Shown here: one piece after another, positions 21,553-27,638 of the stretch
How the letters are laid out: every line of letters starts with the position of its first letter
Position numbering within the stretch: the stretch's first letter is position 1
Assembly: GCA_013151745.1 (NCBI GenBank)
Contig: JAADHS010000158.1
Location: 1 to 33,232 of the forward strand
DNA length: 33,232 bases
Reading direction: 5' to 3'
Source of the DNA: Gammaproteobacteria bacterium
GTDB lineage: Bacteria; Pseudomonadota; Gammaproteobacteria; JAADHS01
Program-made: the position numbers and the translations under genes
Notes under the pieces: generated by a model
What the model saw: the letters and a program-made list of their open reading frames with translations, nothing else
What the model was told of the DNA's origin: nothing
Database searches by the model: none

Positions 21553-21599
21553 TTTCTGAATAAGGTTTGGAGTGTACTTCTTCTCGTGACTGGGGCAAA

Positions 21600-23723
21600 A
21601 TGCGGTTCATGAATGATCAGGCACAGCAACTTCTCAATTCCGTTTTTGGCTACTCCCAGTTTCGTTTTCACCAGCAGCAGGCTATTAATCATGTTATTTC
21701 GGGAGGAGATGCGCTGGTTGTGATGCCAACCGGCGGTGGTAAATCGCTGTGTTACCAAATTCCGGCTTTAATGCATAAAGGAACAGGGGTTATTGTCTCG
21801 CCGCTCATTGCGCTGATGCAGGATCAAGTCAATGCGTTGCGCCAGCTTAACATCAAAGCTGAGTATCTGAATTCCAGCTTGTCTGCTGCGGAAGCATATC
21901 GCGTTGAGCAGGCAATGCTTAACGGCGAGCTTGATATGTTATATATTGCCCCAGAGCGTTTGTTGATGGAGCGTACCCTGAATTTATTGGAACGCGCGCA
22001 ATTGGCGTTATTTGCTATTGATGAAGCGCATTGTGTTTCGCAGTGGGGGCACGATTTTCGACCCGAATATTTACGTTTATCTATTATAAAAAATCGTTTT
22101 CCGGGTGTCCCTTGTATTGCTTTGACCGCCACAGCAGATCCGCCAACGCAACGTGAAATTATAGCTAAACTGGAGCTTGATCACGCCGCCGCTTATATCA
22201 GCGGCTTTGATCGACCTAATATTCAATATCGTATTACCGAAAAAGAAAATGCGAATGCTCAACTATTAAGCTTTTTGCGCAAAGAGCATGTGGGTGATGC
22301 TGGTATCGTTTATTGTTTGTCACGAAAAAAAGTGGAGTCCGTTGCGAACTGGTTGAACCAAAAAGGCATCACCGCGTACCCTTATCATGCGGGCTTGACT
22401 CAAGACGTACGTAAAATAAATCAGCAACGTTTTATTCATGAACGAAGTGTGGTCATGGTGGCGACCGTCGCTTTTGGCATGGGCATTGATAAGCCGGATG
22501 TGCGATTTGTTGCGCACCTGGATATGCCGCGCAGTATTGAGGCTTATTATCAAGAAACGGGGCGAGCGGGTAGAGATGGTCAACCCGCAACCGCCTGGAT
22601 GGTTTATGGCTTGCAAGACATAATTATGTTGCGAAAAATGCTGGATGGCTCTGAAACAGATGAAGAACGTAAGCGTGTAGAGCGCCATAAATTGGAAGCA
22701 ATGCTGGGTTTATGTGACATTATCACGTGTCGCAGACAGGCTCTTTTACTGTATTTTGGTGAACAAACCGGTGAAGCCTGTGGTAATTGTGATACTTGTT
22801 TGCAGCCGGTACAAACCTGGGATGGGACTGAAGCAGCACGGATGGCCTTGTCGGCAGTTTATCGAACGGGGCAGCGTTATGGCGTGAATTACGTAATTGA
22901 TGTGTTATTGGGTAAAAGCAATAAACGGGTGACCGAGCAAGGGCATCAATCCTTGAGCACTTTCGGAATAGGCAAAGCCCATGACGCCGCGCAATGGCGA
23001 ACCATTTTTCGACAACTGATTACCCAAGGGATACTGAGTGTTGATGTTGAAGGCTTTGGTGGCTTGTATTTAAATGATGCGAGTCGACCAGTGTTGCGCG
23101 GCGAGCAATCGTTGCAATTCAGAAAACAAATTGTGCAAGAGCGGCAACGTAAAAAAAGCAAGCAACCTGTTTCGTCTGGCGACGAAGGACTGTGGAACAG
23201 CTTATGCGAATTAAGAAGGAAGATCGCCAGCGAACAAGGCGTGCCTCCTTATGTTATTTTTCATGATGCTACCTTGATGGAAATGGTAGAAAGGCAACCA
23301 CAGACATCATCACAATTTGCCGCTTTATCCGGGGTAGGGCAGCATAAACTGGCTAAATATGCTGATGTGTTTATGGAAAAAATAAAAGAATTTATCAGCG
23401 ATACCCATACAACAACAGGCAGCACCGCTGATGAAACCTTGGTGTTATTAGAGCAGGGGTTATCTGTAGCGGCAATTGCCGCCAGCAGAGCACTTAAAGA
23501 AGAAACAATTTATACCCATTTGGCCGCAGCGATAGAGCAAGGACAGGTTGAGCTTCAGGATGCGGTAGTGATGCCAGAGACGGAGCGGCAGTTAATAGAA
23601 GACGCGATTCTGACACATAGAAGTTCAGCGACTAGTGAACCTTTAAGGCTACGCCCTGTTTATGATGCACTGGGTGGTACGTATGGTTATGGTGTGTTGC
23701 GCTGCGTCGCAGCTTCGTTATAA
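21600..23723 (+). CDS. recQ: ATP-dependent DNA helicase RecQ with C-terminal extension
   Basis: The protein (707 aa; typical RecQ about 610) has all helicase motifs: FRFHQQQAINHVISGGDALVVMPTGGGKSLCYQ, DEAH at 141-144, TATADPPTQREI, GIVYCLSRKKVE, ATVAFGMGIDKPDVRFVAHLDMP and QETGRAGRDG. The RecQ-Ct zinc site (CRRQALLLYFGEQTGEACGNCDTC) and winged helix follow, then an HRDC domain (about 530-600). A further 100 residues hold a helix-turn-helix-like unit (LLEQGLSVAAIAASRALKEETIYTHLAAAIEQGQ, HTH_40 type) and a final YGVLRCVA helix. RecQ unwinds DNA in recombination and replication repair. The ATG at 21600 follows GGGG; 21609 is a close alternative. Confidence 0.95.
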   Translation: MRFMNDQAQQLLNSVFGYSQFRFHQQQAINHVISGGDALVVMPTGGGKSLCYQIPALMHKGTGVIVSPLIALMQDQVNALRQLNIKAEYLNSSLSAAEAYRVEQAMLNGELDMLYIAPERLLMERTLNLLERAQLALFAIDEAHCVSQWGHDFRPEYLRLSIIKNRFPGVPCIALTATADPPTQREIIAKLELDHAAAYISGFDRPNIQYRITEKENANAQLLSFLRKEHVGDAGIVYCLSRKKVESVANWLNQKGITAYPYHAGLTQDVRKINQQRFIHERSVVMVATVAFGMGIDKPDVRFVAHLDMPRSIEAYYQETGRAGRDGQPATAWMVYGLQDIIMLRKMLDGSETDEERKRVERHKLEAMLGLCDIITCRRQALLLYFGEQTGEACGNCDTCLQPVQTWDGTEAARMALSAVYRTGQRYGVNYVIDVLLGKSNKRVTEQGHQSLSTFGIGKAHDAAQWRTIFRQLITQGILSVDVEGFGGLYLNDASRPVLRGEQSLQFRKQIVQERQRKKSKQPVSSGDEGLWNSLCELRRKIASEQGVPPYVIFHDATLMEMVERQPQTSSQFAALSGVGQHKLAKYADVFMEKIKEFISDTHTTTGSTADETLVLLEQGLSVAAIAASRALKEETIYTHLAAAIEQGQVELQDAVVMPETERQLIEDAILTHRSSATSEPLRLRPVYDALGGTYGYGVLRCVAASL

Positions 23724-23746: not shown

Positions 23747-24784
23747 ATGGACAGGGTTCGCGCACAATCTCAATTTGCTGTACAGGCTTATTCTCTGGTT
23801 GAAGCATTGCAACTCAGATTCGTAACGCAGCTCAATAATATCAGCGATGAACTGGGCAAGAGCCAAAACTTTATGCCCACGGAGTGGTTTCGTGATTCAG
23901 GCATACACGGGGGAGGTATTCGTTTTGGCGCGACAGATGCAAGTCTGTTCAATCGTGCCTCGGTTAATGTATCGCAGGTACAATATGACGACGATGACAG
24001 TAAAAGCCTGGCTTCTGCCTCCGCAATATCAACTATAATTCACCCTCAAAACCCGTTGGCACCTTCGGTTCATATTCACCTTAGCTGGACAGAATTAAAA
24101 GGTGGAAAAGGCTATTGGCGAATGATGGCCGACTTGAATCCAGCGATTGAAAACGCCGCAGATAAAATTCAATACGCGCAGCAACTGGAGCAATCCGCTC
24201 CCGAACAATATGCGGAAGCATCGGCGCAAGGGGATCGATATTTTTTCATTCCAGCATTAAATCGCCATCGGGGTGTCACGCATTTTTATCTGGAAAACTA
24301 TTCCACGGGAGATTTTTGTGCGGATATGGCCTTGGCAACACGTGTCGGTGAAATCGCTATTGATGCTTACTGCGATATTTTGTCCTCGGCACTCACAACG
24401 CGCACGACACCCAGCGAGTCAAATTACCAGCAACAATTAGATTACCATACACTTTATTTTTTTCAGGTGCTCACACTTGATCGAGGTACCACTTCAGGTT
24501 TATTAGTACATAATCAAAATGACGTCGGCATTTTGGGCTCACTCCCAGCGCAAGTTAACCGGGATTTGTTGATTTCCTGGCGAGACAAGATGCAGACACC
24601 ACAAGATTTATTGTTGGATGGCATTGTTGGTTGCCTGCCTGAAACAACAATTTGCACTATAGACGATGAAACCAAGCAAGCGTTGGCGGATGCAATCCGG
24701 TATCATTATCAAAACAACCCGGCTGCGCTGGATATGCAAGCGACAGGAAATTCAGTGCCCACTACGGTTGATAATCATAAATAA
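23747..24784 (+). CDS. Divergent coproporphyrinogen III oxidase (HemF)-like protein
   Basis: The protein (345 aa) is homologous to oxygen-dependent coproporphyrinogen oxidase but strongly diverged. Matching parts are W-F-R-x-x-G-x-x-GGGI near residues 47-58, FNRASVNVSQV, SAISTIIHPQNPLAPSVHIHLSW (containing the conserved histidines), and the C-terminal LDRGTTSGLLVHNQNDVGILGSLP. The WWFGGG-DLTP loop of HemF is replaced by GYWRMMADLNP, and the RGIGGxFFDDL block has become RGVTHFYLENY. Activity as a standard HemF is therefore doubtful; it could be a paralogue with another tetrapyrrole role. It starts 23 bp after recQ, probably in the same operon. Its 3' end overlaps the convergent histidine-kinase gene by 10 bp. 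Confidence 0.75.
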   Translation: MDRVRAQSQFAVQAYSLVEALQLRFVTQLNNISDELGKSQNFMPTEWFRDSGIHGGGIRFGATDASLFNRASVNVSQVQYDDDDSKSLASASAISTIIHPQNPLAPSVHIHLSWTELKGGKGYWRMMADLNPAIENAADKIQYAQQLEQSAPEQYAEASAQGDRYFFIPALNRHRGVTHFYLENYSTGDFCADMALATRVGEIAIDAYCDILSSALTTRTTPSESNYQQQLDYHTLYFFQVLTLDRGTTSGLLVHNQNDVGILGSLPAQVNRDLLISWRDKMQTPQDLLLDGIVGCLPETTICTIDDETKQALADAIRYHYQNNPAALDMQATGNSVPTTVDNHK

Positions 24785-26937
24785 GGAAAGGTGACGCAAA
24801 AGCAAACGCCTTTGGGTTGAGTCACGTTGTGGGCAGAGACCGTGGCGCGATGATGTTGGGCAATTAAACGAACGACATAAAGTCCCAATCCTAAATGAGG
24901 CTCTTTACTGCCTTGTTGACGAACGGAAACCATTGAGTTAAAAAGATCATGTTTCATGTTGTCCGGAAGGTGAGGGCCTTGATTGAATACACTCAGCTCA
25001 ATTCCCCCTTCTTTGTGTGAGAGCGCTATGGTTATAGGGGTGTTCGTAGCGGAAAAATCGATGGCATTGCTTATGAGTTTATCCAATAATTGCGCGATAA
25101 GGTCGGGGGTGCCTTTGATATTAAGTGTCTTTGTTGAGATTGATAATGTTTCCGAAAAAACAATAACGTTATTGTTGTAGGCCAGTTGATATCCTGATAC
25201 ACAGCTTTTGATAAGAGGTGATAATTCGAAAATACTAAATTTTTCTTGCTGTAAGGTTTGTTCCAGTCTCGTTGCTTCGCTCATTCGGGTTAGTATTATG
25301 CTCAGGCGTTCCAGACCTTTTTTGGCGCGATCAACATAAAGAGCGGCTTCTGTTGCTTCCTCTGCCTGATCAAGATTATCCAGAGAAGAGCGTATGATGG
25401 CAATCGGGGTGCGCAATTCATGCGATAGTTTGCTGGACATACTTTCCAGATATTGGTTGTATTCATTTAATCGCTTCAAAATGTCAGTAAAGCTAACGGC
25501 AAGATCACCAATTTCATCACTGGCGGAGGTATAGGTGAGAGTGCTTTTAATCTGTCCATCAGGACTGATGGCCTGCTCAGTTTCATCTCGGAGTTTTTTA
25601 ATGCGATAGGACAGTCGAGCGGCAATGAGTAACAGCACGGTTGCGGCGGTGATAAAGGTCAATAAACTTAAATTAACTACAATTTCCATCGCCCGGTTTT
25701 GCAATAAAACAGTACGATGACTGGTCTCTTCAATCGCAACGGCGCCAATGATTTTGCCCTGACTCCATACTGGATACGAGGCCATTAATATATTGGTGTT
25801 TTTATCTTGAGTACGGCGCCACTGGGTAGAGGGTGTACCTTGTAAGGTATTTGTGATTTCCTGGTTTTCCAGCTTCGATACGGTTGACAATACGTCGTTA
25901 AAAAATTGACCCGGTTGTGGTAACAGTAACGTGTAAAAAATATTTTTAAGGTTGTTGAAAAATGATTGTTGAGTTCTTTTTTCAAGCTCATTTATCGGGT
26001 CTGAAGGAGTATGATGGCCTTCAAGTTGCCCGGTTAGCGCGACAACTCTGCGGTGGTGATCAATTACCCAGGTGCGTGAAGAGGGGGTGTCCAGGCGCTG
26101 TAGTAGTGATTCAAGATCAGGAGACGGAATGACAATCGAGCTGAGTGAAACCGATTTAGTCTTGTTGGCATCCAAAGTCGCATAGTTTATGTCATGCGAA
26201 TCTTGATCTATATCGCTGATGATGATGCCCAGGCGGTGACCCATTTCAGCAATTGGAATTTCAATCTCGATATTATAACCTGTTGCCGTTTCATGCCACA
26301 CGGAATGAATGTTGAGTGCGTTGGACTCTAAGACGTGGAATTGATCTTTGGACCACGTGACTTGACGTGCCTGGACGCGGCCGGGTGCCGCAGTGGTAAT
26401 ACGGTATTTTTCAATTTTTCCATTAGGTCGCTCTAAAATGAGTGTTAAAGCATCGCTATTATTGAGTGATTGATCTTCGTAAGGGCGATAGATGACCTGA
26501 TCATCTTTGATCTCAAAATACAAGTAGAGCGCATCCTGATCACTGCCAATCCAAAAGCGGGCATCCAGCGTGGTTTGTACAGGCTCAGGTCGTGATGTCT
26601 CATTGAGATGTGTGAACAGGTTATGGCTTTTTTCTGGATAGGGGTGCCATTCTTCGCCGTAACCATCAAGAGTGATCGGCAGGCTATGCGGTCGCACATA
26701 CAAATGGTGAGCATCAGGGTGAGCAGAAGACGTACTGATAGTGAAAAGTTCGGGGCGCTCATGTAAGGTTGCGGCAACCATTTGCGCACGAGTTAACAGA
26801 GTCTGTTCTTGATTATCTCGAAGATACTCAGACATTTTTTGTATCTGTTGATAGCCGAAAAAAGGAATGAGCAACAGGCTTAGCGAGGCGAGAAATAGTT
26901 TTTTTCCAATACTAAAAGAAGGGGAGCGACTCTGCAT
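24775..26937 (-). CDS. pdsS: PdsS-like sensor histidine kinase with CBM9/DOMON-like sensor domain
   Basis: The protein (720 aa) starts with a membrane helix (LFLASLSLLLIPFFGYQQI). A large periplasmic region contains a CBM9/DOMON-type beta-sandwich (about 85-260: SLPITLDGYGEEW, RFWIGSDQDALYLYFEIKDDQVIYR, SVWHETATGYNIEIEIPIAEMGHRLG). A second membrane helix near 425 leads into HAMP, then HisKA with the phosphorylated His506 in KLSHELRTPIAIIR, and HATPase_c (LLDKLISNAIDFSATN; GLGLYVVRLIA). Domain order, length and motifs match the 'proteobacterial dedicated sortase system' histidine kinase family as I remember it (TIGR03785). It follows the response regulator by 2 bp. No sortase or LPXTG substrate is encoded in this window. 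The stop overlaps the hemF-like gene. Confidence 0.82.
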   Translation of the reverse strand: MQSRSPSFSIGKKLFLASLSLLLIPFFGYQQIQKMSEYLRDNQEQTLLTRAQMVAATLHERPELFTISTSSAHPDAHHLYVRPHSLPITLDGYGEEWHPYPEKSHNLFTHLNETSRPEPVQTTLDARFWIGSDQDALYLYFEIKDDQVIYRPYEDQSLNNSDALTLILERPNGKIEKYRITTAAPGRVQARQVTWSKDQFHVLESNALNIHSVWHETATGYNIEIEIPIAEMGHRLGIIISDIDQDSHDINYATLDANKTKSVSLSSIVIPSPDLESLLQRLDTPSSRTWVIDHHRRVVALTGQLEGHHTPSDPINELEKRTQQSFFNNLKNIFYTLLLPQPGQFFNDVLSTVSKLENQEITNTLQGTPSTQWRRTQDKNTNILMASYPVWSQGKIIGAVAIEETSHRTVLLQNRAMEIVVNLSLLTFITAATVLLLIAARLSYRIKKLRDETEQAISPDGQIKSTLTYTSASDEIGDLAVSFTDILKRLNEYNQYLESMSSKLSHELRTPIAIIRSSLDNLDQAEEATEAALYVDRAKKGLERLSIILTRMSEATRLEQTLQQEKFSIFELSPLIKSCVSGYQLAYNNNVIVFSETLSISTKTLNIKGTPDLIAQLLDKLISNAIDFSATNTPITIALSHKEGGIELSVFNQGPHLPDNMKHDLFNSMVSVRQQGSKEPHLGLGLYVVRLIAQHHRATVSAHNVTQPKGVCFCVTFPYL

Positions 26938-26939
26938 AT

Positions 26940-27638
26940 TTAATGATGCAGCCAGCGATAGCCCATGCCATAAACTGTTGTTATCGCGGTGAAACTGGAG
27001 TCTATTGCTAAAAATTTGTTTCTGATGCGCTTGATGTGGGAAGTGATGGTCGCATCGTCGACGACAATTTTAGCATCTTGCATCAGTTGCTCGCGGCTGC
27101 GCACGTGTCCTGGGTAACGAACCAAAGCATAAATCATCCAGAACTCGGTCAGGGTCAGTTCTATTTCCTGTTGCTGCCATTTCACTGAGAAACGATTTTT
27201 ATCCAGTTCAAGCTCGCCTCTATGCAGTATTTCGTTATTGAGGTCGGGCGTTTGATAAGCATCCAGGCGGCGAAAAAAAGCACTTACCCTGGCGCAGAGA
27301 TTCGGTATGCTGACTTCTTTGCTGAGGTAGTCGTCCGCACCCAGTCGTAAACCTGAGATGGTATCGAGGTCGCTGTCTCGTGCGGTAAGAAAAATAAGAA
27401 TCAGTGTTGCCGACTGTGCTCGCAGTGTTCGGCAAAGCTCGAAGCCGCCATCCGGTTCATCTTCAAGGCCGATATCTAATAGAACCAGGTCAGGTAAATT
27501 TTGCTTAAAGGCCAGCATCGCGGTCTGTCTGTTGGCGTAAAGTTGCACTTTAAAACCCTGTTTTTTTAAGGCATCTAAGTAATTAGCACCAATGATCGGG
27601 TCATCTTCAACTATCGCTATTTCTTTGCTCACATTCAT
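26940..27638 (-). CDS. pdsR: PdsR-like OmpR-family response regulator
   Basis: The protein (232 aa) has a receiver domain with acidic pocket Glu11-Asp12-Asp13, the phosphorylated Asp55 in LVLLDIG, Thr in FLTARDSD and the conserved Lys in YLSKEV. An OmpR/PhoB-type winged helix follows (about 135-230: LELDKNRFSVKWQQQEIELTLTEFWMI... DDATITSHIKRIRNKF ... TTVYGMGYRW). The phrases IDxGFELCR, FLTARDSDxDTxSGLRLGADDYL and VDDxTITSHIKRIRxKF match the response regulator of the dedicated-sortase system (TIGR03787) as remembered. The ATG at 27638 is used; a GTG two codons later has better spacing to GAG. The kinase gene follows by 2 bp. Confidence 0.88.
   Translation of the reverse strand: MNVSKEIAIVEDDPIIGANYLDALKKQGFKVQLYANRQTAMLAFKQNLPDLVLLDIGLEDEPDGGFELCRTLRAQSATLILIFLTARDSDLDTISGLRLGADDYLSKEVSIPNLCARVSAFFRRLDAYQTPDLNNEILHRGELELDKNRFSVKWQQQEIELTLTEFWMIYALVRYPGHVRSREQLMQDAKIVVDDATITSHIKRIRNKFLAIDSSFTAITTVYGMGYRWLHH

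Follow-up and report, generated by a model that had tools for sequence, protein, structure and literature searches.

The window analysed here, a stretch of 33,232 nucleotides, encodes a diverged relative of the oxygen-dependent coproporphyrinogen oxidase HemF that most probably still does the job of HemF, as a coproporphyrinogen III oxidase that depends on O2 and has a rebuilt active site. The diverged family to which this protein belongs is named dHemF here; literature searches found no publication naming or describing such a family. dHemF is a horizontally spread variant of HemF, moved between phyla, and among iron oxidisers, methane oxidisers and sulfur bacteria it seems to take the place of ordinary HemF. 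The family is a natural rebuild of an enzyme with unsettled chemistry: the O2-driven removal of two propionates by HemF, apparently free of cofactors, is called unsettled in the accessible text of reviews (PMC7242693, PMC10548856). A natural enzyme that seemingly carries out the same step without Arg262, Arg413 and both glycine loops would show which residues the chemistry truly needs. In addition, dHemF fills a gap in the heme pathway of genomes otherwise read as missing that step, and it gives the correct name to the main HemF-type protein of the Zetaproteobacteria (59 of 62).

Family assignment and boundary

The open reading frame begins with an ATG codon and lies as follows:

23747..24784, + strand: dHemF, HemF-fold protein of 345 aa, proposed oxygen-dependent coproporphyrinogen III oxidase (profile, structure, alignment)

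The product matched Pfam PF01218 at 100.5 bits (E 9.2e-29), far beyond chance and above the cut-off of 31.8, and this was its sole Pfam match at E values up to 10. The NCBI equivalog model of HemF, NF003727, gave 105.2 bits and so failed its cut-off of 297 by far. All 13 members of the family profile A1 matched PF01218 as well (E up to 1; best 7.1e-36), the only other Pfam matches being two unrelated chance ones, and the relatives with solved structures that were identified by sequence (nine sequences) were all coproporphyrinogen oxidases. The structure predicted from 13 family members had a mean pLDDT of 87.4 and a pTM of 0.87. Foldseek placed HemF entries at ranks 1–19, and a second structure comparison returned 12 solved HemF entries at Z 21.4–31.2: ten of them superposed at Z 28.0–31.2 with an rmsd of 2.0–2.7 over 255–264 residues, and 1tk1 and 1txn scored 22.1 and 21.4. 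The folds other than HemF that were listed reached Z 17.4 or less, with bilin reductases and red chlorophyll catabolite reductase making up most of them. The sequence-only reading had called the protein a HemF homologue and had proposed a structural comparison with HemF; the PF01218 score and the closeness of the predicted structure to the HemF entries bear that claim out.

The protein is not a one-off degenerate copy, as dHemF forms a sharply bounded and strongly conserved family. A pattern search of genome contigs recovered 14 dHemF loci with best-segment identities of 54–71%, from Gallionella, Nitrosomonadales, Ectothiorhodospiraceae, Mariprofundus, Methylomonas and other Methylococcales, Arcobacter, Sulfurimonas and an unclassified gammaproteobacterium. 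With profile A1, built from the window protein and 12 of these loci, complete dHemF proteins scored 408–661 bits, a range that includes the 13 sequences used to build it, and canonical HemF scored 90 or less, with no overlap. Purifying selection on the gene is indicated by dN/dS values of 0.06–0.37 in 12 close pairs.

The alignment comprised 51 dHemF and 52 canonical HemF sequences after the exclusion of second copies of the same gene and of partial or broken loci (L009, L014, L052–L054, L101, L103 and L104); the Zetaproteobacteria genes fetched later were scored with the profile only and stand outside it. In a gene tree of the 51 dHemF and 10 of the canonical sequences, a very long branch of about 10 changes per column parts all dHemF from the canonical sequences, and its length leaves the root and the depth of the tree unsure. 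The dHemF of Methylococcales occupy at least three separate places in this tree (three label changes are forced by the starred branches and four occur on the best tree), which points to the gene having entered or left the order repeatedly by transfer, although the three forced changes need not be three gains. Two dHemF matches were present in each of two genomes, L095 and L100 in G378 and L004 and L009 in G058; L100, a long branch in the dHemF tree, has a stop inside the matched stretch. In a Sulfurimonas MAG (L014:7023–8128) the gene lies in two reading pieces and is either decayed or affected by an assembly error. Two patterns found no relatives in viral contigs. A plasmid collection yielded 33 matching records, all below 60% identity and none covering more than 80% of the query in one place; among the 20 matches listed, the annotated genes were all named hemF.

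Residue changes and a probably rebuilt active site

The features of the window protein that set it apart from, or tie it to, canonical HemF are the following, all on the + strand:

24071..24085: HIHLS, residues 109–113 (alignment, human numbering)
24110..24142: GYWRMMADLNP, residues 122–132, in place of WWFGGGxDLTP (alignment)
24269..24301: RGVTHFYLENY, residues 175–185, in place of RGIGGxFFDD (alignment)
24443..24448: Tyr233-His234, replacing Arg-Arg (human 388–389) of the RRGRYVEFN block (alignment, human numbering)
24476..24490: LDRGT, residues 244–248, with Asp245 and Arg246 equivalent to human Asp400 and Arg401 (alignment, human numbering)
24509..24517: His255-x-Gln257, with Gln257 replacing human Arg413 (alignment, human numbering)
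24584..24781: C-terminal part, residues 280–345, exceeding the length of canonical HemF (alignment, model)

Both replaced signature blocks are present exactly as the sequence-only reading had described them. Comparison of the two families (51 dHemF against 52 canonical sequences) showed 44 positions at which one residue, shared by both, is fixed to at least 90%, and 48 that are at least 90% fixed within each family to different residues. The comparable residues of the WWFGGG and RGIGGxFFDD blocks are 96–100% fixed in canonical HemF, whereas the same columns in dHemF are fixed to other residues or free. The few exceptions common to both families are the first Trp of WWFGGG, the Asp-Leu-x-Pro that follows and the initial Arg-Gly of the second block, so that Trp124 and Arg175 are kept; the two residues directly before the Asp of Asp-Leu-x-Pro are missing from dHemF.

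A mechanistic study of the human enzyme, cited in PMC7242693, carries Asp400, Arg262 and Arg401 in its title. The equivalents of Asp400 (Asp245), His258 (His109) and Asp282 (Asp129) are kept in 51 of 51 dHemF and that of Arg401 (Arg246) in 50 of 51, and the equivalents of Arg183 and Arg332 are also retained. The position of Arg262, which is Arg in every one of the 52 canonical sequences (fraction 1.0), corresponds to residue 113 and is Ser in 50 dHemF and Cys in the remaining one. The position of Arg413 is Gln257 in all 51, and Arg-Arg 388–389 has become Tyr-His (233–234). Among the new residues, Arg125, Met127, His111 (in place of Asn), His179, Glu183, His234 and His255 are present in 51 of 51 sequences and His174 in 49, and His99 and His109 are common to dHemF and canonical HemF. 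The C-terminal tail is also conserved (T340 in 49 of 51, N343 in 48 and H344 in 49), in a stretch (333–345) that the model places at a pLDDT under 50.

Mutants of human HemF bear on these losses. The accessible text of PMC13071380, which names R183, R282, R413 and H256, describes a pronounced loss of activity for R282K and substantial activity for R183K and R413K. R282 and H256 are read here as Arg262 and His258, because residue 282 is an Asp and the Arg on the strand of the conserved His258 is 262; this reading is that of the present analysis and not of the cited work. On that published description, the loss of Arg413 in dHemF looks tolerable, and the loss of Arg262, whose Lys mutant under this reading is strongly impaired, is the real puzzle of the family. 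dHemF is a member of the PF01218 superfamily that departs from canonical HemF in equivalog score, signature loops and Arg262, and it most probably works as HemF does.

Distribution, heme genes and neighbourhood

The distribution of dHemF is scattered over Gallionella, Methylococcales, other Gammaproteobacteria and Campylobacterota. The dHemF gene is the one PF01218 match in the genome of the window (95.55% complete). Among 55 other sampled genomes of its class, 51 have a match, all at the canonical level (E 4.2e-85 or better), and both genomes of the same family carry a canonical-level HemF. The 13 genomes behind the named loci all hold dHemF only. In Methylococcales, where classes were set by best E value and dHemF was then confirmed by profile, 201 genomes divided into 173 with canonical-level HemF, 11 with dHemF, 17 with neither by PF01218 and none with both (Fisher p 5.2e-11). 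In Zetaproteobacteria, 62 of 78 genomes have a match, comprising 59 dHemF (checked by profile), three canonical HemF, one of which is a fragment, and no genome with both (Fisher p 0.013). The Fisher test overstates certainty, since it treats related genomes as independent. Three of 160 Campylobacterota genomes have a match, and all three are dHemF. One genome, G326, seemed to hold both types, but its two matches are both canonical, and the second matches in G452, G378, G058 and G067 are all dHemF. Altogether, canonical HemF was found in none of 82 dHemF genomes (1 + 13 + 8 + 2 + 58, with double counting removed), and it may well be the arrival of dHemF that displaced HemF. As a check on mis-binning by tetranucleotide and GC composition, the four chunks of the window lay 0.110–0.122 from the genome mean, inside the leave-one-out range of 0.078–0.137 obtained from 19 of the 20 stretches of that genome (one short stretch was dropped); the power of this test is limited, since loci from other organisms also fell in range (L006 at 0.113, L002 at 0.133) and L015 was just outside at 0.148.

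The coproporphyrinogen oxidase types searched for were HemF, HemN and HemQ. According to the sequence-only reading, the idea of a new function would fall if the genome had no other coproporphyrinogen oxidase and this one complemented hemF; the absence holds for HemF, but a full HemN is present (631.7 bits), and dHemF is thus not the only such enzyme there. HemN exceeded its cut-off in 15 of the 24 dHemF genomes searched, that of the window included, and in Zetaproteobacteria in 65 of 78 genomes, among them 50 of the 59 that carry dHemF. The presence of HemN in most dHemF genomes implies that dHemF need not be essential in them. In the remaining nine of the 24 (G056, G057, G058, G064, G067, G068, G360, G367 and G378) HemN was below cut-off, which may be a gap in some cases, as completeness is mostly unstated, many of these are MAGs, and the HemW-like matches of two are incomplete or broken (G057 has not even a full one and that of G367 has stops inside). 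The absence nevertheless recurs across the genomes of dHemF genes that are related in the tree (G064, G068 and G367; G360 and G378).

The product of coproporphyrinogen oxidase is the substrate of HemJ, which depends on such an enzyme for its supply. A gene of the PF03653 (UPF0093) type, which we take to be HemJ, is present in all nine of these genomes. Genes of the PF06778 (Chlor_dismutase) type, which presumably includes HemQ, were found in none of the 17 dHemF genomes searched. Nine dHemF genomes therefore keep HemJ and have no canonical HemF, HemN over cut-off or HemQ, and dHemF can be the sole coproporphyrinogen oxidase among the types searched. HemJ itself was found in 13 of the 17 dHemF genomes in which it was sought and was missing from 4. 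Among the nine Zetaproteobacteria genomes with dHemF and no full HemN, five were checked: HemJ was present in G459 and G494, and no HemJ-type match was found in G482, G485 and G491. There was also none in the HemN-bearing G061 (Mariprofundus micogutta).

The gene directly upstream of dHemF in the window, 23 bases away, is a neighbour only:

21567..23723, + strand: recQ DNA helicase (profile)

An operon or functional link with recQ was rejected. In a tblastn search of the window recQ against 34 other dHemF loci (3.4–17 kb), the sole match was weak (24% identity, in L006) and fell on a gene named as an RhlE-type helicase; no recQ is present in these loci, and the linkage that the sequence-only reading had found unusual is incidental. 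On the other side, at 24775–27638 on the − strand, a sensor kinase gene (HisKA, HATPase and a weak CBM9-like domain) and a Trans_reg_C response regulator converge on dHemF, and the sensor kinase frame overlaps the end of the dHemF frame by 10 bases. Elsewhere, leuB lies upstream of dHemF in four Methylococcales loci (two by profile and two by clustering), and a response-regulator-like gene does so in three Campylobacterota loci (the profile was run on one).

The neighbours in Zetaproteobacteria are mixed housekeeping genes. A glucose-6-phosphate dehydrogenase cluster lies near dHemF in 7 of 21 clustered loci (L187–L192 and L194), with a phosphogluconate dehydrogenase-type gene beside it in L191, and may reflect co-regulation or simply a setting of housekeeping genes. 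In G474 and G476, hemW is directly upstream of dHemF on the same strand, at spacings of 98 and 73 bases between longest frames. The run there, on the − strand (L187:5893–11246 in G476 and L188:6114–11468 in G474), consists of a ribonuclease G/E-family gene, hemW, dHemF and a gene of the glucose-6-phosphate dehydrogenase cluster, the name of the last being given by profile in L194 only and that of the ribonuclease in L188 only. Apart from hemW in these two genomes, no heme gene was recognised beside dHemF, and no tetrapyrrole gene cluster around it, among neighbours of which a minority were annotated.

Mechanism, alternative readings and known systems

We infer for dHemF the reaction of HemF and its dependence on O2, together with pocket roles for the new residues and a possible metal site. 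Coproporphyrinogen III would bind in the HemF pocket, where the kept Asp/Arg/His set would position pyrrole and propionate as in HemF. With O2 as the oxidant, two propionates would be removed by oxidative decarboxylation and CO2 would leave twice, yielding protoporphyrinogen IX for the protoporphyrin-dependent heme pathway. The loss of Arg262, Arg413 and Arg-Arg 388–389 implies another way of holding the carboxylates, in which Arg125, Arg49, Arg175 and the new histidines may take part. As regards a metal, the accessible text of PMC9576991 and PMC10548856 describes E. coli HemF as manganese-dependent and the human enzyme as metal-free, so that both states are reported in the family. What counts against an O2-dependent oxidase is the loss of Arg262, the wide miss of the equivalog cut-off, the frequency of HemN and the occasional absence of HemJ.

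The new histidines also allow a less conservative reading, namely a coproporphyrinogen oxidase of different chemistry, suited to low oxygen, that binds a metal through these histidines or passes electrons to something other than O2. At least five His positions (111, 174, 179, 234 and 255) are fixed at 96–100% in dHemF and not conserved in canonical HemF, and several of the named holders of dHemF are microaerophilic iron oxidisers. We nevertheless consider this reading rather unlikely, as in the model His111 and His179 belong to strands and His234 to a helix, with His255 falling between helices in a low-confidence stretch, and as the frequent co-occurrence with HemN would be redundant if another acceptor were used. 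In a fuller and equally doubtful version, dHemF would be a mechanistically distinct class, in which His111, 179, 234 and 255 and the shared His99 and His109 make up a site for a metal or for another way of handling O2, adapted to low oxygen and high iron, the conserved tail closes over the substrate, and the gene spreads among microaerophiles, displacing HemF.

The sequence-only reading had seen a HemF-type tetrapyrrole enzyme with changed core loops, which stands, and had gone on to suggest a new activity or a binding protein. That second part finds no support, given the 82 dHemF genomes free of canonical HemF, the nine HemJ-bearing genomes in which dHemF is the sole candidate, and the purifying selection and many invariant residues. 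A change of function towards a side pathway, with decarboxylation of different propionates or of a different porphyrinogen, would have a precedent in HemF2 of tolyporphin biosynthesis, which at only 38% similarity shows, in the accessible text of PMC10459692 and PMC10548856, that a HemF relative can take a new substrate, and it would fit the 48 positions fixed differently in the two families. It is nonetheless improbable, because HemF2 works beside HemF1 and dHemF beside no canonical HemF, because no tetrapyrrole cluster was recognised around the gene, and because of those same nine genomes. That Arg262 and the glycine-rich loops are gone could suit a non-catalytic protein that binds tetrapyrroles or regulates on the HemF fold. 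The retention of the Asp400, Arg401, His258 and Asp282 equivalents in 50–51 of 51 sequences, the mutual exclusion with HemF and the position as sole candidate in several genomes make this very improbable. Least credible of all is that dHemF reduces bilins or links HemF with the ferredoxin-dependent bilin reductases: these enzymes are among the next-best folds (Z 11.1–17.4), but every listed HemF entry (Z at least 21.4) outscores all of them, and sequence profiles find HemF alone.

The most probable reading, a divergent HemF that keeps the reaction, can be set against known systems. The bilin reductases (PcyA, PebA and phytochromobilin synthase) share a distantly similar fold, at Z up to 17.4, and gave no sequence-profile match from the window protein (E up to 10) or from the 13 members (E up to 1). 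HemN would catalyse the same step as dHemF and accompanies it, over cut-off, in 15 of 24 genomes; it is described in the accessible part of PMC10548856 as a radical SAM enzyme, whereas dHemF has no radical SAM Pfam match at E up to 10. Like dHemF, tolyporphin HemF2 has diverged from HemF and has an altered pocket, as far as the accessible text of PMC10459692 and PMC10548856 describes it. HemF2 occurs together with HemF1 within a tetrapyrrole gene cluster, however, whereas dHemF accompanies no HemF in 82 genomes; the two are told apart by published description and gene content, and not by sequence. From HemF/CgdC (PF01218, NF003727), dHemF differs in lacking Arg262, Arg413 and the glycine loops, in its longer conserved C-terminus and in falling under the equivalog cut-off. 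With it, dHemF shares the fold, a PF01218 score over the cut-off and 44 positions, including the equivalents of Asp400, Arg401, His258 and Asp282.
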